NCBI GenBank assembly: GCA_017430725.1
Contig: JAFRMK010000009.1
Coordinates: 1-64,000 of the forward strand
Length of the DNA stretch: 64,000 nucleotides
Source: Candidatus Saccharimonadota bacterium
Lineage (GTDB): Bacteria > Patescibacteriota > Saccharimonadia > Saccharimonadales > Saccharimonadaceae
Reading direction: 5' to 3'
The translations under genes and the position numbers were made by a program. The notes under the pieces are model-generated. The model had not been told where the DNA came from. It searched no databases and saw only the letters and a program-made list of their open reading frames with translations. The stretch's first letter is position 1, and every line of letters begins with the position of its first letter. Positions 26,476-37,417 of the stretch are shown here, piece after piece.

Positions 26476-26481
26476 TATAAT
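26476..26481 (+). promoter_or_regulatory. -10 box, leaderless arrangement
   Basis: TATAAT ends 6 nt before the ATG at 26488. It stands back-to-back with the start of the ABC-F gene. Confidence 0.5.
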
Positions 26482-26487
26482 AAGCTC

Positions 26488-27183
26488 ATGAAAAAGTTCT
26501 TAAGTATCACATTCATCATCTTTGCCATCGCCGGCCTGGCCGCCATTATCGGCGCCGGAGTTTACGGCGTGCTGCACGAATCGGACAATTCGACCACCCA
26601 AACTCTGCCACTGCCAGAAAAAACCGGCGGCATACGAGGTCAACTCGGCATCGACAAAAACATCAACGAAGACAACATCGACCAATACCTCGGTCGCGCC
26701 GACAGCGTATACCGCGACATGCGTATGCTAGTCGACGAAGCCGATTATGCCAAAATCGGCGGGGATTCTTATCTGTCAGGCTTCGTAGAGGGCTTTGAAG
26801 TTGTCCCATATCCCAAACTCGTCAATGTCAGCGGTCTGCCGCCCGAAGTCGGGCAAAGCTATCAAGGCCCGACACTCTTCACGCAAAGCTCGTTTGGGCT
26901 CAAGGCCAACTATCTCGAATCAGAGGATATTCTCGAATACTTTTTTCCGAAAGACAAAAACATTTTCCTGATGTGCGGAGGTGGCGGCTATGCCGGCATG
27001 ACCAAAAACCTTCTCACGCAACTCGGCTGGGACGAAAATCGCATCTGGGTGGTTGGCGGATATTGGTACTACAATGGCGAACATGCCGTACAAGTCAAGC
27101 GCCAAATGGGCACCGAAACAATTTATGATTTCTGGAAAGTAAACTATCACGACCTTGACTTTACGGAGTTACATGAAAAATAA
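26488..27183 (+). CDS. Membrane-anchored rhodanese-like protein
   Basis: A 231-residue protein with an N-terminal membrane anchor (about residues 4-28) and an extracytoplasmic domain. 'IFLMCGGGGYAGMTKNLLTQLGWDENRIWVVGGYWYYNG' matches the end of a rhodanese domain with the active-site loop beginning at Cys163, though the usual Arg closing the loop is absent. Rhodanese domains handle sulfane sulfur or thiols. The start at 26488 is fixed by the TATAAT 6 nt upstream. The next gene, a thioredoxin-like protein, overlaps its end by 11 nt, so the pair may act together in thiol chemistry outside the cell. Confidence 0.6.
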   Translation: MKKFLSITFIIFAIAGLAAIIGAGVYGVLHESDNSTTQTLPLPEKTGGIRGQLGIDKNINEDNIDQYLGRADSVYRDMRMLVDEADYAKIGGDSYLSGFVEGFEVVPYPKLVNVSGLPPEVGQSYQGPTLFTQSSFGLKANYLESEDILEYFFPKDKNIFLMCGGGGYAGMTKNLLTQLGWDENRIWVVGGYWYYNGEHAVQVKRQMGTETIYDFWKVNYHDLDFTELHEK

Positions 27184-27646
27184 ACAAAAACATCTGCTCA
27201 GTGTCATTCTGGCCGTCGTTGCCACGCTATCTGCTGGCTTTGCCTGGCTGATATACGACCAATCCGATGCGCGTTTTTCGCTTGAACCGGAGCTCTATCA
27301 GGGAAGTGAAATCAAAGAGATCGGCGCAGCCGACTACCAGAAGCTTATCGAGCAACGTAAAAGCTTCGTAGTTATCGCACATATGGATTTCTGCCCAGCC
27401 GAAACACCGCTCACCACAACCGCCGAAGCACTCGCCCATGAAGACGGCCTCACTTTTTACGGACTAAACAGTGACGAATTCGCCAAAACAGCACTCGCCA
27501 CCGAAATTCGTTATTTGCCAAGCGCCGCCATCATCCGTCAGGGCGAACTCGTTCGCTATCTTGACGCCGAATCCGACGACGACATTCCATACTACCAAAC
27601 AGCTAGCGCATTTCGGGATTGGCTCAGCAAAGACATTCAGCTCTGA
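27173..27646 (+). CDS. Membrane-anchored thioredoxin-fold-like protein
   Basis: A 157-residue protein with an N-terminal signal anchor and a domain 'KSFVVIAHMDFCPAETPL...RYLPSAAIIRQGELVRYL' of thioredoxin-fold pattern. Only one Cys of the CxxC is present (FCPA) and the cis-Pro is at 'LPSA'. The ATG at 27173 has GGAG 5 nt upstream and lies inside the previous gene. Possibly a partner for extracytoplasmic disulfide or persulfide handling; weak evidence. Confidence 0.55.
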   Translation: MKNKQKHLLSVILAVVATLSAGFAWLIYDQSDARFSLEPELYQGSEIKEIGAADYQKLIEQRKSFVVIAHMDFCPAETPLTTTAEALAHEDGLTFYGLNSDEFAKTALATEIRYLPSAAIIRQGELVRYLDAESDDDIPYYQTASAFRDWLSKDIQL

Positions 27647-28816: not shown

Positions 28817-29296
28817 ATGCCACGCAAAGTTACCAGTAGCCTTCAGCGCAAAGTCATGCCAGACCGCAAATACCAAAGCGTCCTGGTCCAGCGTTTGATT
28901 AACAAATCCATGCTCAACGGCAAAAAACAGGTCGCCGAACGCGCCGTCTATTCGGCCATCGAAGGCGCCTCCAAAAAGCTCAAAAGCGAAAACCCCGTCG
29001 AGGTCCTCGAGCAGGCCATCAAGAATGTCAGCCCGGACTTCGAAGTTAAATCACGTCGCGTCGGTGGCGCTAACTACCAAATCCCATTCCCGATAAGCGG
29101 ACACCGCCAATTGCATTTCGCCATGATGTGGCTCGTGCAATCAGCTCGCGCGCGCAGCGGCATGCCATATGCAAAACGGCTCGAAGCTGAAATCGTCGAC
29201 GCCTACAACGAGGCTGGCGCTGCCTTCAAGAAGAAGGAAGACTGCCACCGCATGGCCGAAGCCAACCGCGCTTTCGCGCACTTCGCCAGAGGCTAG
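28817..29296 (+). CDS. rpsG: 30S ribosomal protein S7
   Basis: A 159-residue S7 of normal length, with 'MPRKVTSSLQRKVMPDRKYQSVLVQRLINKSMLNGKK'-type N-terminus and the 'RRVGGANYQIPFPI' rRNA-contact segment. It nucleates the 30S head. It follows rpsL with GGAGG upstream. fusA, normally next, lies about 6 kb away behind envelope genes. Confidence 0.96.
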   Translation: MPRKVTSSLQRKVMPDRKYQSVLVQRLINKSMLNGKKQVAERAVYSAIEGASKKLKSENPVEVLEQAIKNVSPDFEVKSRRVGGANYQIPFPISGHRQLHFAMMWLVQSARARSGMPYAKRLEAEIVDAYNEAGAAFKKKEDCHRMAEANRAFAHFARG

Positions 29297-29304
29297 GCAA
29301 AACC

Positions 29305-29337
29305 AAAAATCCACTCCAATTACGGGGTGGATTTTTC
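29305..29337 (+). terminator. Intrinsic terminator after rpsG
   Basis: AAATCCACTCC pairs with GGGGTGGATTT, followed by T. It separates rpsL-rpsG from the envelope operon that follows. Confidence 0.8.
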
Positions 29338-29361
29338 ATGCAAAAACCGACAAGCTTATGC

Positions 29362-29367
29362 TAAAAT
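29362..29367 (+). promoter_or_regulatory. -10 box of the wall-hydrolase operon
   Basis: TAAAAT ends 8 nt before the ATG at 29376, again with no room for a Shine-Dalgarno sequence. Confidence 0.35.
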
Positions 29368-29375
29368 AAATATAA

Positions 29376-30029
29376 ATGTGGGATACCAGAAAAGTGCGGC
29401 AATTAGCGCGCATTTTAGCAATTATTGCAATTCTCGGCGCACTAGCTTTTGTGGGCATATTTTTCGTTCCACACTTAATCAACAATGCGCGTATTGACAT
29501 TATCGTGGCGCCACAAAATGCCCAAATTACCATTAACGGCAAAAGCTACGCTAACGGCTATCATGCAATTCGCCCCGGCAACGCTAAGGTCTCAATCACC
29601 GCCGACGGCTACCAAACCAAAGAACTCGAAATCGAGCTAAAACCGCACCAAAACCTCCAGCTCCACGCTTATTTGCTCGATACGGACGGCGGATTATTCG
29701 CCTACACAAAATCACGCAACGACTACGAACTGCTTAAACTCGTTGCAGACGACGATGCCTCGATATCATTCGTCAACAACTACGAATCGGCGCTCCGCAT
29801 CAAGACCGCCTTACCAATCACTTATTACTATACGGGCAATAATCAATCGTACAGTCAATCATTCTCCGCACTCCAAAGCACTATTATCACCGACGCCACC
29901 GACGACGAGAACTGCTACAGCACACTCTGCCTCAAAGTCAGCGGCGAAAAGAAAAGCCAGGCAGACGCAGAATTCGTCTTGAAACAATCCGGTCTCGACA
30001 TTAAGTACTACGACGTGTTCTATGAATAG
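29376..30029 (+). CDS. Membrane-anchored PEGA-like domain protein
   Basis: A 217-residue protein: membrane segment (about residues 13-35), then a PEGA-type beta unit ('IVAPQNAQITINGKSYANGYHAIRPGNAKVSITADGYQTKELEIEL'), then an unrecognised C-terminal domain with two Cys. PEGA domains occur in envelope-associated proteins. It is the first gene of an operon with the large wall hydrolase (8-nt overlap) and the protein at 33090, whose layout and C-terminal pattern are similar, suggesting that the two anchor or regulate the hydrolase. Confidence 0.6.
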   Translation: MWDTRKVRQLARILAIIAILGALAFVGIFFVPHLINNARIDIIVAPQNAQITINGKSYANGYHAIRPGNAKVSITADGYQTKELEIELKPHQNLQLHAYLLDTDGGLFAYTKSRNDYELLKLVADDDASISFVNNYESALRIKTALPITYYYTGNNQSYSQSFSALQSTIITDATDDENCYSTLCLKVSGEKKSQADAEFVLKQSGLDIKYYDVFYE

Positions 30030-33000
30030 GCGCTTCTTCGTCAAACAATTCACCAAAAGCCTGTCGCTCACATCACTGGCAATCGCCATGGTGCTTTTCA
30101 TGCCAATCCCGGTTCACGCCGATGTCGAAGATTTCATCGATAAATTTGCCGCCAACAATATCATGTTCTACAACCCTGACGAGTGTAAAGATGGCGCAAC
30201 ACAAAGTAGTGGCTCTATCACAATCGACCGCTCCAGTCTCCCCGAAGAAACCATCAAAAAACTCGAAAATGCCGGCGTAGAAAACCTTGCCCAGCAAAAC
30301 CTAGCCGCCTATAAAAAAGGTGCCGAGGCCCTCAACATCCCGTGGCAGATGCTCGCCGCACTTCATTTCCGCGAAGCCGGCATGAATCCATCCCGCTCGA
30401 TGTCAAATGGCGCCGGACTCGGCACCGGCAGAAACGTCGACGGACTAGTCGTTGGCAACACGCTGGAAGAGGACGCCGTCAAGGCGGCTCGCCACTTCGT
30501 AGAAATGGCCAAAAGCGTCTATGGCATCGAGCTATCGGCAAATTCAAGCCCCGAAGACGTCGCACAGGCTTTCCTGGCATACAACCGTGGCGCTATGTAC
30601 AAGAACGCTGGAGCCACTTACGACCAGTCGCCATATGTCATGAATGGTGTCGACGAATCACACATGAACATGCACTGGATTCATGCCGACTCCTATAGTG
30701 GCTCCCGAAAACTCAACAATATAGAAGGTAGTCTCGACCAAAACCCGGGCGCAATGGCTGTTTATGCCTACCTCGGCGGCAACGCCGGTGGCAACGCGAC
30801 TACGACAAACAGCGCCAAAGCCAACCAGGGCTCCAATGTCACAATCATTGGCGACGACGTCGCTCAATCCGCCTTAAGCAGCCTGCAGAGCAAATTCGGC
30901 CAAGCCGACATCCATGTCAATAGTGGCATGCACATGCTCGCCAGCACCGAAAACGACAACAGCGTCGAATCTGTCATCAAACAGCTTTCTGCCGCCGGCC
31001 AACTGCGCGACGTGCTTGTCATTTCTGCAGGGAACAACGACCCAAACGGCTTCACGGATGCCGACCTGTCCGCCCGCATCCTCGCCAATGCGCCGGACGT
31101 CCAAAAAATCATCTTCGTCGAAAACTATGATGCCAACAACCCAGACCTGTTTAACTCCAACAATCAGGCCTACACCGCACTCGCAAATTCAAACAGTCGT
31201 GTCGACGTCGCAAAATGGAAAAACTCTGCACAAAACAACCCCGGATATCTTTCCGGCATCACGCCAACCGCAGACGGCGCCAACGAGTTAGCCAGCGTGA
31301 TTGCTGACGCCGTCGGTGCCGACATGTACGGCAAAAGCGACGCCAAAATCTGTGAATGCTCGACCAATACTGGCTCAGTCGAAGGTGGTCTCGACTTAGG
31401 CCAAGCCGATGAACTTGCTAGGCAATACCGCAGCGACACTCATAGTGGCGAATACAACAAAGTTATCCGCATCAATAACTGCGTCAACGCCACCGCATTC
31501 TTCGTCCAGACCTTCACCTCCATCGGCAAAGTCGGCCGCAAATGGGGCAACGGTGTTGAAACTGCGCACCGCTTAGCCAAAGATTTTAACCTGCCAGAGG
31601 GCAATGAACCAAAACCTTTCTCGATTTTCAGCGTCAGCGCTGGAGGATTTGGCCACACGGGCGTCGTTCTGGCCGTCAATGGCGACGACATCGTAACACT
31701 CGAAGCACACTATTCCAAAGACGTCTCTGCCGCAAAAATCTATCACCATTCAAAATCATATTTCAAAAACAGCGTATATGGCACTGCATTTACTTACCTA
31801 GATTCGGTCGTGGACGCCGGTAAAGTTTCATCAGCACTCGGCGGCACCGCCATCAAGACCAGCACCCAAGAGAAAGTCACCGTTGACGCCAAATGGAATA
31901 ATGGCTGGGTTAGCAACGGGCTCAGTGGATATGTCAAAGAATCGGCCATTGAAGCCGAGCAGACCGGCAAGATTAAACTGGCAAGCACGGACTACAACGA
32001 AAGCTTTGCTACCAAGAACAGCCAGGGCAATACTGGCGCAAACAAAATCACAATCTTCAGTACCGAAACCGCTGGCGCGAATGGCGGGCTTGCAAACTAT
32101 GGCACGGACGGCGCCCGGCCGCCACATTTTACCGTAGACATCAAGAATAAGCGCATATATCAACACCTCCCCATCTCGAAGCCTGCTACCAGCCTAGTCG
32201 CCCACAACAATACCGCCGGCATCCAGATTGCAGTCATCGGCTATTCATCATCATCCAGTCCCGGATTCAGCGAAGATTGGAATCTTCAAAACAGCAGCAG
32301 CTTCGGCGATGCCGAATGGGCCTATCTCGCCACCCTAATGACGGCAATTTCCGACGCAACCGGCATCGAGATGAACAGCAGCGTCGAATGGGATACGCCC
32401 AGCCGACTCAACGCCACCGATTTTGCTCGCTACAATGGTGTGCTTGGCGCCATGCACGTACCAGACAACGCAACCAACGGACCTGGCAATATCTGGGCAA
32501 TGCTGTCAAAGTCACTCGGTGCAATGGCCAACAGCGCTGAATGCGGCAACAGCTACGACAGCAGCGACTTCCCGTGGTACGACCAAGGTGACAAGAGATG
32601 GCGCAGCTCGCCATTTGGCTCAGGCACCGTCGGTGAAGCCGGCTGTGGCCCGACTTCGTTTGCTATGATGGCGACCGCTCTTTTGCGTAAGACCATTCTG
32701 CCAGATGAAACCGCTAAATATGCCGGCGAACATGGCGTATATATCCCCCATGCCGGCTCAAGTTGGACAGTCACGAAAGTACTAGCTGACCGATACGGCC
32801 TCGAGTACAAAGACGTCGGTGGCTCTTCGTCGGACGCCGAAACTATCGCAACGGTCTCGAAGCTCCTTCGCGAAGGCTGGATGATACACACAAGCGGCGC
32901 CGGCTCCGCACCGTTTACAAAAAACGGACACTATATCGGCATTCGTGGTATCACGGCTGACGGTAAGTGGCTGATTGCTGATTCTAACGGCCAGAAGGGC

Positions 33001-33090
33001 AAAGCAAACACCGCCAAAGAATGGGAACCTCAAGAAATCCTAAACGCCGGCATGCGAAAAGAAAATATCAAAGCCATACGGAGGAAGTAA
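30022..33090 (+). CDS. Secreted multi-domain peptidoglycan hydrolase
   Basis: A 1022-residue exported protein. A signal peptide (about 1-33, cut after VHA) is followed by: a lysozyme/transglycosylase-like domain (about 70-250, candidate Glu118 in 'HFREAGMNP'); an SGNH-hydrolase-like domain (about 270-440) whose catalytic Ser is Asp279 (GDD) and whose DxxH box is lost, hence inactive; a CHAP-type Cys/His amidase/endopeptidase (about 465-600, Cys487, His545); an Amidase_2/PGRP-like domain (about 690-840, His702 and His728); and a C39_2-like cysteine peptidase (about 855-1005, Cys875, His970). It should cleave peptidoglycan at several bond types outside the cell. Target may be its own wall or a host's; the latter is inference. 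Confidence 0.8.
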   Translation: MNRRFFVKQFTKSLSLTSLAIAMVLFMPIPVHADVEDFIDKFAANNIMFYNPDECKDGATQSSGSITIDRSSLPEETIKKLENAGVENLAQQNLAAYKKGAEALNIPWQMLAALHFREAGMNPSRSMSNGAGLGTGRNVDGLVVGNTLEEDAVKAARHFVEMAKSVYGIELSANSSPEDVAQAFLAYNRGAMYKNAGATYDQSPYVMNGVDESHMNMHWIHADSYSGSRKLNNIEGSLDQNPGAMAVYAYLGGNAGGNATTTNSAKANQGSNVTIIGDDVAQSALSSLQSKFGQADIHVNSGMHMLASTENDNSVESVIKQLSAAGQLRDVLVISAGNNDPNGFTDADLSARILANAPDVQKIIFVENYDANNPDLFNSNNQAYTALANSNSRVDVAKWKNSAQNNPGYLSGITPTADGANELASVIADAVGADMYGKSDAKICECSTNTGSVEGGLDLGQADELARQYRSDTHSGEYNKVIRINNCVNATAFFVQTFTSIGKVGRKWGNGVETAHRLAKDFNLPEGNEPKPFSIFSVSAGGFGHTGVVLAVNGDDIVTLEAHYSKDVSAAKIYHHSKSYFKNSVYGTAFTYLDSVVDAGKVSSALGGTAIKTSTQEKVTVDAKWNNGWVSNGLSGYVKESAIEAEQTGKIKLASTDYNESFATKNSQGNTGANKITIFSTETAGANGGLANYGTDGARPPHFTVDIKNKRIYQHLPISKPATSLVAHNNTAGIQIAVIGYSSSSSPGFSEDWNLQNSSSFGDAEWAYLATLMTAISDATGIEMNSSVEWDTPSRLNATDFARYNGVLGAMHVPDNATNGPGNIWAMLSKSLGAMANSAECGNSYDSSDFPWYDQGDKRWRSSPFGSGTVGEAGCGPTSFAMMATALLRKTILPDETAKYAGEHGVYIPHAGSSWTVTKVLADRYGLEYKDVGGSSSDAETIATVSKLLREGWMIHTSGAGSAPFTKNGHYIGIRGITADGKWLIADSNGQKGKANTAKEWEPQEILNAGMRKENIKAIRRK

Positions 33091-33800
33091 TGAGAAATAA
33101 TCCAGAACTCATGCGCATAATCGGTATCTACGGCGGAATCGTCATTCTCGCCATCGGCATCATCGCCTACTTATATCATGTTGTGCGAATCGAGACCGGT
33201 CGAGGCACCGACATCATCTCCGGCGAAACAATCGACAACTACCAGGGGACCGAAAGTCCCGGCATCGACCTTATCGGCCTGAAACAGCTCCAAGAAAACG
33301 GTTTTTCTGCGCAATCTTATGACTCACTATGCGACAAAGTTAAATCCTACGTCCGCATCGTCTCGCCAAAAACTACAACAATCAGCATCGTCAAAGATAG
33401 CCTAAAGAAAACCGACAACTCATATGTTTTCCGCATCAAAACCGACACGAAGCAAGAATTCACAATCAGCGCAGACGAACTATCGGCCACCGACTACAAA
33501 TTTACTATCAGTAACAAGTATGGCGAACTCTATCACTATGATAGCTCTAAATTCAAGAAGCCCCTCAACCGAAAAGAAACTTTGGTCGAAAATTTCCTGC
33601 CATATAGCAATCAAACCGCCGACGGCGACACTTTCGTCTTTCACTACACGCTTGGCGGCGCATACGAAATTCAGGTCAGCTCGTGCGGCGACGCCAACAT
33701 CAAACAGCGAGCCGAAGAATCAGTTCGCGCGTGGCTCAAGAGCATCAATTACAATCCCGATGAATTCACCTTCACGGTACCGGACTATTGCAACGGATAA
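33090..33800 (+). CDS. Membrane-anchored protein of unknown function, operon partner of the hydrolase
   Basis: A 236-residue protein with one membrane segment (about residues 10-32) and an extracytoplasmic domain ending in a charged helix and a Cys-containing tail ('RAEESVRAWLKSINYNPDEFTF'). The start at 33090 shares a base with the hydrolase stop (TAATG) and follows GGAGG. It resembles the first gene of the operon in layout. Function unknown; co-regulation with the hydrolase is clear from the overlap. Confidence 0.6.
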   Translation: MRNNPELMRIIGIYGGIVILAIGIIAYLYHVVRIETGRGTDIISGETIDNYQGTESPGIDLIGLKQLQENGFSAQSYDSLCDKVKSYVRIVSPKTTTISIVKDSLKKTDNSYVFRIKTDTKQEFTISADELSATDYKFTISNKYGELYHYDSSKFKKPLNRKETLVENFLPYSNQTADGDTFVFHYTLGGAYEIQVSSCGDANIKQRAEESVRAWLKSINYNPDEFTFTVPDYCNG

Positions 33801-33806
33801 CACCAA

Positions 33807-35228
33807 ATGCCAAAACGCAAACTCATCTATCAAATTTACCCCAGCGCCGTTGGCTCACTCGAAGATATTCGCGCCCTTATTCCGCAAATCGCCGCACAAA
33901 TCGGCCCCGACTATATCTGGCTCAGTCCGATTTTTCAAAGCCCCTGGGTTGATGGCGGTTATGACATCAGCGATTACCGCAAGATTGACCCACGCTTCGG
34001 AAACCTCAATGACTTTCGTAAACTCATCGCAACCGCAAAACGCTACCACATCGAAATCCTCCTCGACCTAGTCCTGAACCACAGCTCTAGCGCACACCCC
34101 TGGTTTAAGAAATCAGCCAACCACGACCCCCGCTACAAAGATTACTATGTCTGGACAGACAAGCCGCTCAATTGGCAATCATTCTTTAGCGGCCCCGCCT
34201 TCAGCTACAATCAAGTCCGCGGCAAATATTACTTGCACCTTTACGACACCTCGCAGCCAGACTTCAATTACAACAACCCACAAATACTGCGCGAATTCAA
34301 GGAAATCATCGATTATTGGACCAAGAAGGGTGTCGCCGGTTTTCGCGTTGACTCCGCCAATATTCTCGCCGAATCAAGCCTCAAGCCCGGTCTTTTGCCA
34401 CGTATTACTGGTTTTACGCACTATTACCAGACCGCCAACACGGTAACTATTCTCGAAAAACTCCTTGCTCGACCAGACGTCTTCGCCATCGCCGAGCCGA
34501 TTGGCGGCGACTTTCTCAGCAAGCGCCGGTTTCGCGCGCTAACCAACAAGGCCTTCGACGCATCGTTTAATATCGGCACACTCGATGTCGCTGACACCTT
34601 CCTCTCCATCAAAGGGCACCCCCTCAAAGTGAATTACCGTCGCTGGCTCCGTAAGCTTGCTGATTGGTCCAACGAGCCCACCTTTTCGCTAGCACTCGAG
34701 TCACACGACACGCCACGCGCCCCTTCGCGTTTCCATGCCGACCCCCGCGTTCTAGCCATGCTGCAATTCCTGTTACCGACCAACTATCCTTGCATCTATC
34801 AAGGCCAAGAGCTCGGCACCAAAAACCCAAAACTAAGCAGCAATATCAATGATTATCCTGGCGTCGAATCACGCATGGTCTATCGTCAGCTCCGCCGAGA
34901 GGGCAAGACCAAAGCCCAGGCCATGCGCATCGTCAAACAGCGCTCGCGCGATAACGCCCGCCAGCCAGTTGATTGGGGCGCCTATATCACCCAGTCCAAA
35001 CAGCCAAACTCTCCACTCTCAACTTATCACCGCCTCATTCAGCTCTGGCGCACCGATCCCGTGCTCATTCACGGTAAGCTCAAAATCAAGCGCATCACCA
35101 AAACCGGCATTTTCGACTTCTATCGCATTTATCGCAATCGCCGCTATTTCGTACATCTTGATTTCAGCGGGCACACCGTCTCGTATCTGCAAAATGCCGC
35201 CGGCGAAAAAATCATCAAGAGTCGCTAG
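33807..35228 (+). CDS. GH13 alpha-glucosidase/alpha-amylase family enzyme
   Basis: A 473-residue (beta/alpha)8 glycosidase: 'YQIYPSAVG' start, region I 'LLDLVLNHSS', region II 'GFRVDSANI' (nucleophile Asp), region III 'AIAEPIG' (acid/base Glu), region IV 'LESHDTPR' (Asp). 'GFRVDSA' and the 'SSAHPWFKKSANHDPRYKDYYVW' insert resemble oligo-1,6-glucosidase/alpha-glucosidase relatives. No signal peptide, so probably cytosolic use of alpha-glucans, perhaps with the phosphorylase at 19260. It starts 6 nt after the previous gene without a clear ribosome binding site. Confidence 0.85.
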   Translation: MPKRKLIYQIYPSAVGSLEDIRALIPQIAAQIGPDYIWLSPIFQSPWVDGGYDISDYRKIDPRFGNLNDFRKLIATAKRYHIEILLDLVLNHSSSAHPWFKKSANHDPRYKDYYVWTDKPLNWQSFFSGPAFSYNQVRGKYYLHLYDTSQPDFNYNNPQILREFKEIIDYWTKKGVAGFRVDSANILAESSLKPGLLPRITGFTHYYQTANTVTILEKLLARPDVFAIAEPIGGDFLSKRRFRALTNKAFDASFNIGTLDVADTFLSIKGHPLKVNYRRWLRKLADWSNEPTFSLALESHDTPRAPSRFHADPRVLAMLQFLLPTNYPCIYQGQELGTKNPKLSSNINDYPGVESRMVYRQLRREGKTKAQAMRIVKQRSRDNARQPVDWGAYITQSKQPNSPLSTYHRLIQLWRTDPVLIHGKLKIKRITKTGIFDFYRIYRNRRYFVHLDFSGHTVSYLQNAAGEKIIKSR

Positions 35229-35230
35229 TC

Positions 35231-35259
35231 TTTAAATCTATCAAAAAATATGCTATGCT
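35231..35259 (+). promoter_or_regulatory. Promoter of fusA and short leader
   Basis: TTTAAA (35231-35236), 17-nt spacer, TATGCT (35254-35259). The leader can form ACAGCA/TGCTGT (35276-35281 with 35287-35292) or the competing GCTG/CAGC pair (35269-35272 with 35277-35280); these short helices are suggestive only. The ATG follows AAGGAAT. Confidence 0.5.
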
Positions 35260-35320
35260 AAGCAGAAAGCTGTTCACAGCATTGTTTGCTGTTGTCAAAA
35301 AATAATAATTAAGGAATAAT

Positions 35321-37417
35321 ATGGCGAATCAAAAAGTCAAGGACTTAGCTAATTACCGCAATATCGGCATTATTGCCCATATCGACGCCGGTAAAACCAC
35401 TACCTCCGAAGCGATTCTATATCGCACCGGCCTCAAACACAAAATCGATCTCGTGAAAGGCGACACTGGCGGCGCCACCACCGACTGGATGGACCAGGAA
35501 AAAGAGCGGGGCATCACTATCACGTCTGCTGCCGTCACCGCCTATTGGAAAGACCACAAAATCAATATCATCGATACGCCGGGACACATCGACTTCACCG
35601 CTGAAGTCGAGCGCTCACTCCGAGTGCTTGACGGCGCTGTCGTCGTTTTCGACGGCAAAATGGGCGTTGAGGCCCAATCCGAAACCGTCTGGCGCTAAGC
35701 CGACAAATATGGCATTCCGCGCATCTGCTTCATCAATAAAATCAACCAAATCGGCGGCGACTTCTACAAATCGCTCGAATCAATCCACAAACGCCTCAGC
35801 AAAAACGCTTTTGCGATTCATTTGCCAATCGGCTTCGAAAAAGACATCTGCGGCGTGGTCGATTTGCTCGAAATGAAAGCCTACACCTACAAAGATTATG
35901 CTGACCACGAATTAACCGTAGGCGATATTCCGGCCGACATGCTTGAAAAAGCCAAAAACTATCGCTCAATGCTGGTTGAAGAGGCCGTCCAGGCCGACGA
36001 AGCCCTGATGGAGAAATTCTTCAACGAGGGCGAAGAGGCTATCACTGTTGACGAACTCAAATCAGCCTTGCGCAAACGCGTCATTGACGGCCAATTCTTC
36101 TTGGTGACCGGCGGTGACGGACGCGGCGTGGTGGTCGAAAAAGTCCTTGACCTAATTACCGACTTCCTGCCATCTCCCGTTGACATCCCAGCCATCTTGG
36201 GCAAATCCCCCAAAACCGGCGAAGATATCGTGCGCCACAGCGATGAATCCGAACCTCTGACCGCACTAGCCTTCAAGATTGCTACTGACCCATTTGTCGG
36301 CAAACTCATCTTCATTCGCGTCTATTCCGGCAAACTCAAGTCTGGCTCCTACGTACTCAATGCCACAACCGGCAATAAAGAACGCGTCGGCCGCTTAGTG
36401 CGTATGTTCGCCGACAAGCGCGAAGACATTGACGAAATTGGCGCTGGCGACATTGCCGCCGTGGTCGGTCTAAAAGACACAACAACTGGTACCACCATCT
36501 GCGACCCGGCTCACCCGATTCACCTTGAATCAATCGAATTCCCCGATCCGCCAGTCTCAATCGCCGTCGAGCCAAAATCAAAAGCTGACCAAGAAAAAAT
36601 GGCCATCGGCCTTGGCAAGCTTGCCGAAGAAGACCCGACTTTCCGCGTCCACACAGACGAAGAATCCGGCCAAACTATTATTTCCGGCATGGGCGAATTG
36701 CATCTCGACATTATCATCGACCGCCTCAAGCGCGAATTTAACGTCGAAGCTAATACTGGCGAACCGCAAGTTGCCTATCGTGAAACCATCCGCGGCACCG
36801 CCGAAGCACAGGGTAAGCACATCAAACAATCCGGTGGTCGCGGTCAATACGGCGACGTCTGGGTCAAGTTTGAGCCAAACGAAGCCGGTAAAGGCTTTGA
36901 GTTCATCGACCAAATTAAAGGTGGTGTTGTGCCGCTCGAATACCGCAAACCGGTTATGGAAGGCATCAAAGAAACGCTCGATGGCGGCGTAATTGCCGGC
37001 TATCCAGTGCTTGACGTCAAGGCTACGCTCTACGATGGTAGCTACCACGATGTTGACTCCAGCGAGCTCGCCTTCCACCTGGCCGGCGTTCTGGCGACAC
37101 GCGAGGGTATCAAGAAAGCCACGCCAGTCTTGCTTGAGCCGGTCATGAAAATTGAAATCACTACGCCAGAAGATTTCATGGGCGACGTCATCGGCGACCT
37201 CAACTCACGTCGTGGCCGCATCGACAATATGGAAGACCGCGAAAACGGCATCACGGTCATCACCGGCTTCGTACCACTCGCGACCATGTTCGGCTACACC
37301 TCGGATTTGCGCGGTATGTCACAAGGGCGCGCCGCTTCTACGATGGAGCTCAATGGCTACGAGGAAGTTCCACCGAACATTGCGCAAGAAATCATTGAAA
37401 AACGCAACGCAAAATAA
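35321..37417 (+). CDS. fusA: Elongation factor G with an in-frame stop codon and altered NKxD motif
   Basis: Reading through one TAA gives a complete EF-G of 698 residues: P-loop 'AHIDAGKTT', switch '[10 protein letters not shown]', G3 'DTPGHIDF', then domains II to V to the end. Codon 126 (35696-35698) is TAA where EF-G has Gln ('VWR[15 protein letters not shown]'); one C-to-T change explains it. Sixteen codons later the G4 motif, normally NKMD, is N139-K-I-N142, and the next residue is Gln for Arg. In Ras-like GTPases Asp to Asn there weakens guanine binding and favours xanthine nucleotides. EF-G drives translocation and recycling, so a null allele should be lethal unless another fusA exists, the stop is suppressed, or the sequence is wrong here. 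Confidence 0.88.

Follow-up and report, generated by a model that had tools for sequence, protein, structure and literature searches.

The window analyzed here, a 64,000-nucleotide stretch of a Saccharibacterium contig, encodes a mosaic wall hydrolase of 1022 amino acids in which putative glycan-cutting and peptide-cutting domains are combined with two modules whose catalytic residues are gone. That this organism has a secreted wall hydrolase of several modules is well supported, and sequence comparison indicates that the protein belongs to a shuffled family, encoded with two membrane partners of its own, and is not an isolated oddity. The enzymes are of known kinds; the architecture and the evolution appear to be new. 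The open-licence papers that could be searched contain no description of the shuffled tagged family or of its two partners, and absence there is not proof. The reading given slightly better than even probability is that the protein is a detached and diversified relative of the wall hydrolase of a type IV secretion system (T4SS), exported to loosen the wall at the cell–host contact, with its dead modules kept for wall binding or regulation.

Export Signal and Genomic Background

The source genome is 0.69 Mb in 10 contigs and 98% complete. The gene is one uninterrupted frame of 1022 codons, and its product begins with a hydrophobic signal that ends near Ala33, just before the mature start; Ala33 is invariant in the 10 relatives compared (Table 1). 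This intact frame and the Sec-type signal bear out the single exported protein proposed in the first-pass annotation, and export is expected on these grounds. Behind the signal peptide lies a short tag with the pattern FYxPxxC, which is conserved across Saccharibacteria. A single-sequence scan of named genomes with the mosaic hydrolase gave no match, and an alignment-based scan gave 28 loci. The relatives that carry names are nearly all "Candidatus Saccharibacteria" assemblies, many of them from the ruminant gut.

Table 1. Features of the cassette and of the mosaic hydrolase (positions in the window; residues of the hydrolase)
Feature	Positions	Strand	Basis
Stem-loop with T-rich 3′ side, between rpsG and the cassette	29305..29336	+	Fold −17.8 kcal/mol, z −4.8
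Partner 1, single-pass membrane protein with PEGA-like domain, 217 aa	29376..30029	+	Pfam PEGA E 0.0014, marginally below threshold
Mosaic wall hydrolase, 1022 aa	30022..33090	+	ORF, Pfam, residue checks, AlphaFold, Foldseek
Sec-type signal peptide, residues 1–33	30022..30120	+	Sequence; Ala33 unchanged in all 10 relatives compared
Conserved N-terminal tag, residues about 34–60, VEDFIDKFAANNIMFYNPDEC	30121..30201	+	Common to differently built proteins and the T4SS-locus hydrolase
LYZ, lysozyme/transglycosylase-like (weak assignment), candidate catalytic E118, residues 66–256	30217..30789	+	Conserved Glu, SLT match in a relative, fusions
SGNH, OatA-type, dead (D279 for Ser, S411 for Asp, T414 for His), residues 262–440	30805..31341	+	Residues, profile, AlphaFold, Foldseek
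CHAP with C487, H545, E561, residues 441–609	31342..31848	+	Pfam, residues, AlphaFold, Foldseek
Amidase_2/PGRP-type, dead (F679, A810, G820 for zinc ligands H, H, D), residues 615–845	31864..32556	+	Residues, profile, AlphaFold, Foldseek
C39_2 peptidase with Q855, C875, H970, D987, residues 846–1022	32557..33087	+	Pfam, residues, AlphaFold
Partner 2 (PART3), single-pass membrane protein, no recognised fold	33090..33800	+	Translationally coupled, TAATG 33088–33092

Five Modules in One Polypeptide

The modules follow one another in the order LYZ-like, SGNH, CHAP, amidase-like and C39. This is the order that the first-pass annotation had given; on the present evidence its weakest call is the lysozyme-like one. 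In Pfam searches with the protein alone, C39_2 is above the cut-off (E 7e-10) and CHAP just below it (E 1.5e-5; score 25.9 against a cut-off of 26). With profiles built from relatives, the SGNH module matches the OatA catalytic domain (PDB 5ug1, E 1e-22; also 6vjp), and the amidase module gives a weak match to a PlyL-type Amidase_2 domain (2l47, E 0.01). AlphaFold, run on an input alignment of 37 rows, predicts four of the folds confidently, with pLDDT of about 95 for SGNH, 88 for CHAP, 95 for the amidase and 83 for C39, but not that of the lysozyme-like part (about 25–73). Foldseek connects the models of SGNH to OatA (3.5e-6), of CHAP to the CHAP fold (2k3a, 4e-4) and of the amidase module to AmiE, AmiA, PGRP-LE and Ph2119 (2e-3 to 9e-3). 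The Cys-His-Glu/Asn triad of CHAP and the Gln, Cys, His, Asp/Asn set of Peptidase_C39_2 are both present.

The lysozyme-like identity of the first module is a weak assignment. Its candidate catalytic Glu lies in an SLT-like motif, IPWQMLAALHFREAG, and is invariant in 8 aligned copies; one relative matches Pfam SLT (E 0.0025), and relatives in distant Patescibacteria are fused to NlpC, CHAP, C39 or M23 and stand once directly behind a VirB4 gene. Comparison with Phage_lysozyme2 copies gave no profile match. If the assignment holds, one exported protein combines a glycan-cutting domain (LYZ-like) with two peptide-cutting domains (CHAP and C39), and any enzymatic activity of the mosaic hydrolase would reside in these three modules.

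Loss of Catalytic Residues in the SGNH and Amidase Modules

The SGNH module lacks all three residues of the Ser/Asp/His triad, as the first-pass annotation had recognized. That annotation had counted four modules with catalytic residues and one without, which does not hold for the amidase-like module: it too has lost all three zinc ligands, present as H/H/D in 25 of 34 family copies, so that two of the five modules are dead. In a survey of 60 distinct proteins from the collected loci, the Ser and His of SGNH are kept almost without exception. Judged by its residues, the dead SGNH is thus not typical of the tagged hydrolase family, and a conserved pseudoenzyme was ruled out because the triad is kept in almost all relatives.

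Catalytic residues of both SGNH and amidase modules have also been lost in another genome, G023 (locus L038). A single loss shared with the window protein was rejected, since L038 groups with the live copies L079 and L080; the losses in the two proteins are therefore separate. Other members of the tagged family also have amidase or CHAP modules that are dead. Three loci (L050, L069, L070) encode a glucosaminidase-amidase-CHAP protein in which the catalytic residues of both amidase and CHAP are lost and both partner genes still flank the hydrolase gene.

The two dead modules of the window protein differ in how far they have diverged. The dead amidase shares 39% identity with live copies, within the live–live range of 38–50%, whereas the dead SGNH shares 25.6% with live copies against a live–live range of 28–36% and is more diverged than any live copy, so that drift without function is possible for it. 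Both keep confidently predicted folds. Taken together, divergence and folds fit retention for binding or regulation better for the amidase than for SGNH.

Both modules have known counterparts. The SGNH module resembles OatA-type SGNH domains (PDB 5ufy/5ug1, 6vjp) in fold and profile match, but it lacks the integral-membrane acyltransferase half of OatA as well as the catalytic triad. SGNH matches in ORFs of about 600 amino acids were considered as OatA transferases and turned out to be T4SS-locus hydrolases. The amidase module matches the fold of Amidase_2/PGRP proteins (PlyL, AmiE, PGRP-LE); in having lost the zinc ligands it departs from the enzymes and is similar to non-catalytic PGRPs.

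Module Exchange Among Saccharibacteria

Outside the T4SS locus, 40 tagged proteins have 26 architectures, a count that is approximate because the NlpC and 3D labels come from home-made profiles and may have drifted, and differences between close species are strong. The pool of modules comprises two lysozyme kinds, glucosaminidase, SGNH, amidase, CHAP, C39, NlpC, M23, M15 and 3D. In one pair of genomes, CHAP and C39 are 93% and 89% shared and SGNH just 34%, which is direct evidence of module replacement. For the window protein, the nearest relative likewise differs by module, being L073 for the amidase and L033 for SGNH. The first-pass annotation had called the stacking unusual and had suggested a search for the same architecture in other Saccharibacteria. 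The order of modules recurs in two of them (L033/L074 and L073), so the five-module stack is not unique; the front glycosidase is a different one there.

Rapid exchange of enzymatic modules behind a common leader region is also seen in modular phage endolysins and polymorphic toxins. The mosaic hydrolase differs from these in being chromosomal, Sec-exported and tied to membrane partners, with no phage or toxin-export genes adjacent. The two dead modules, and the presence of Phage_lysozyme2 in relatives, could suggest a decaying prophage endolysin gene, an origin that is scarcely credible for a protein with no PHROGs match, a LYZ module without match in phages or plasmids, and, in many genomes, a Sec signal, an unbroken reading frame and a conserved operon.

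The Three-Gene Cassette and Its Membrane Partners

The hydrolase gene is the middle one of three overlapping genes, between those of a PEGA membrane protein (partner 1) and the membrane protein PART3 (partner 2). The partner 1 gene overlaps the hydrolase start (ATGAATAG), and the start of PART3 lies inside the hydrolase stop codon. Partner 1 was aligned in 21 cassettes. Of 295 genomes of the order, 110 have a match to its profile at E<=1e-3, which in some cases concerns the PEGA domain only. One or both partner genes lie within 1.5 kb (<=1.5 kb) of the hydrolase gene for 46 of the 49 distinct tagged mosaic proteins, the other three being ORFs cut at the end of the retrieved stretch.

The model of partner 2 is well predicted and has no structural match in the PDB, so that its anchoring is inferred only from the transmembrane helix. 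A VirB8/NTF2-like fold, to which a weak match to a designed NTF2 protein had pointed, was considered for it and set aside. Homology between partners 1 and 2 was likewise rejected, as the two share just a short C-terminal motif (20 columns), which is too little. These two small membrane proteins would keep the hydrolase on or close to the cell surface.

Retention bears on the question of whether the protein is a bacteriolysin released against competing bacteria and not against a host. Secreted bacteriolysins and endolysins combine glycan- and peptide-cutting modules and swap them, and the mosaic hydrolase has this mixed, exchanged composition. Such a role is nevertheless very unlikely: the two co-encoded membrane partners suggest retention, and neither a classical wall-binding repeat nor an obvious immunity gene was recognized.

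In the window, the cassette lies between rpsG and fusA and not with virB4. The stem-loop that separates it from rpsG is probably the intrinsic terminator of the rpsL–rpsG part, although a consensus terminator scan did not flag it. In many genomes, the str operon (rpsL, rpsG, fusA) contains a cassette or directly follows one, and in others the cassette comes after rplM–rpsI; the cassettes beside ribosomal operons (L053, L033, L043, L044, L066, L067 and window positions 28817–35321) represent recurrent insertion. One locus (L103, genome G216) carries a tandem pair of mosaic cassettes with several PART3 genes in between. Upstream of rpsL in the window (26479–27646) lie the genes of two further proteins, one with a signal and the other exported and similar to thioredoxin (Pfam Thioredoxin E 0.0014).

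A position beside ribosomal operons would suit housekeeping, and many modular bacterial hydrolases act on their own wall, so that the protein could be an autolysin that remodels or splits the Saccharibacterium's own peptidoglycan in growth, budding or pilus/T4SS assembly. We regard this as somewhat unlikely. Module content varies widely within the genus while the T4SS-linked copy stays fixed, a probable terminator stands between rpsG and the cassette, and some genomes have several cassettes while some members of the genus have no match to the window protein.

Relationship to the T4SS Wall Hydrolase

The T4SS locus of the same genome (contig 10) encodes PrgI, a VirB4-type ATPase (TraG P-loop) and a CHAP protein, and then a hydrolase with the tag and a PEGA protein. 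Behind these genes come recF, dnaN and dnaA (the last three named by eye from the sequence). Within the genus, virB4-adjacent hydrolases have the composition tag-Phage_lysozyme2-SGNH-NlpC in 15 of 15 loci, one with an added 3D domain, and each of the 15 is followed by a PEGA gene; in other families of the order, a PEGA gene again adjoins the hydrolase in the T4SS locus. The T4SS copy is therefore essentially fixed within the genus, in contrast to the freely varying detached copies. The cassette and the T4SS pair have tag and PEGA partner in common, which makes the two paralogues. The cassette would be a detached copy and the T4SS pair the earlier form, as the occurrence of the latter is fixed and wider.

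Two T4SS loci depart from the common arrangement. In L107 (5948–12599; genome G243), tagged hydrolases of LYZ-NlpC and Phage_lysozyme2-SGNH-M23 composition flank one PEGA gene, an arrangement that looks like a duplication intermediate. In L111 (8129–10273, minus strand), the hydrolase position is occupied by a protein with a Beta-lactamase2 domain (Pfam E 2.7e-13) in place of any recognized lysozyme.

The family is comparable to the VirB1-like two- or three-domain hydrolases of monoderm T4SSs (TraG of pIP501, PrgK of pCF10), in which an exported muramidase or SLT domain is joined to a CHAP or LytM peptidase, and the paralogue in the same genome adjoins virB4. Unlike them, mosaic hydrolases are detached from virB4, have up to five or six modules in an order shuffled between species, add OatA-like and amidase modules, and have PEGA and PART3 partners of their own. 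The role of the LytM and CHAP domains of PrgK seems to be regulation and not catalysis (PMC12857230).

The tag and the PEGA partner are identical in kind at both loci, and in L107 the second tagged hydrolase stands directly after PEGA in the T4SS locus. Both observations would be expected if tag and PEGA recruited the mosaic hydrolase to the secretion apparatus as an exchangeable cutting head, replacing or working beside the fixed hydrolase. This is unlikely for a detached cassette that has its own PEGA paralogue and PART3, the latter occurring in the source genome only at the cassette.

Proposed Role at the Contact With the Host

S. epibionticum requires its T4SS to grow as an epibiont on its host (PMC10633639), and the peptidase and lysozyme genes that follow its virB4 are reported to be essential (PMC12102498).

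The favored reading, a detached T4SS hydrolase relative acting at the host contact, would involve the following course. A T4SS-type pair of hydrolase and PEGA genes may have become detached and been joined by PART3, after which exchange of modules diversified the hydrolase. The exported hydrolase would be retained at or near the cell surface through its two membrane partners, where the lysozyme-like domain would cleave glycan and the CHAP and C39 domains would cleave stem or cross-bridge peptides. For the catalytically dead OatA-like SGNH and PGRP-type amidase, the most likely roles would be to bind the wall, to position it or to regulate the live domains, by analogy with PGRPs and enterococcal PrgK. 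The substrate would be the wall where the cell touches a bacterial host, and not the cell's own wall. That close species differ so widely suggests that the target varies, and the host wall is the obvious candidate and a plausible substrate.

More tentatively, and at less than even probability, the cassettes may form a polymorphic host-wall lysin system derived from the T4SS hydrolase, in which a fixed tag and two partners are combined with exchanged live and dead modules that match host wall chemistry and help to set host range. For the breach of host walls by episymbiotic Saccharibacteria and for the determinants of their host range, the tagged family offers concrete targets for gene deletion and protein assays. 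The family also appears to provide a natural series in which wall enzymes become non-catalytic modules more than once.
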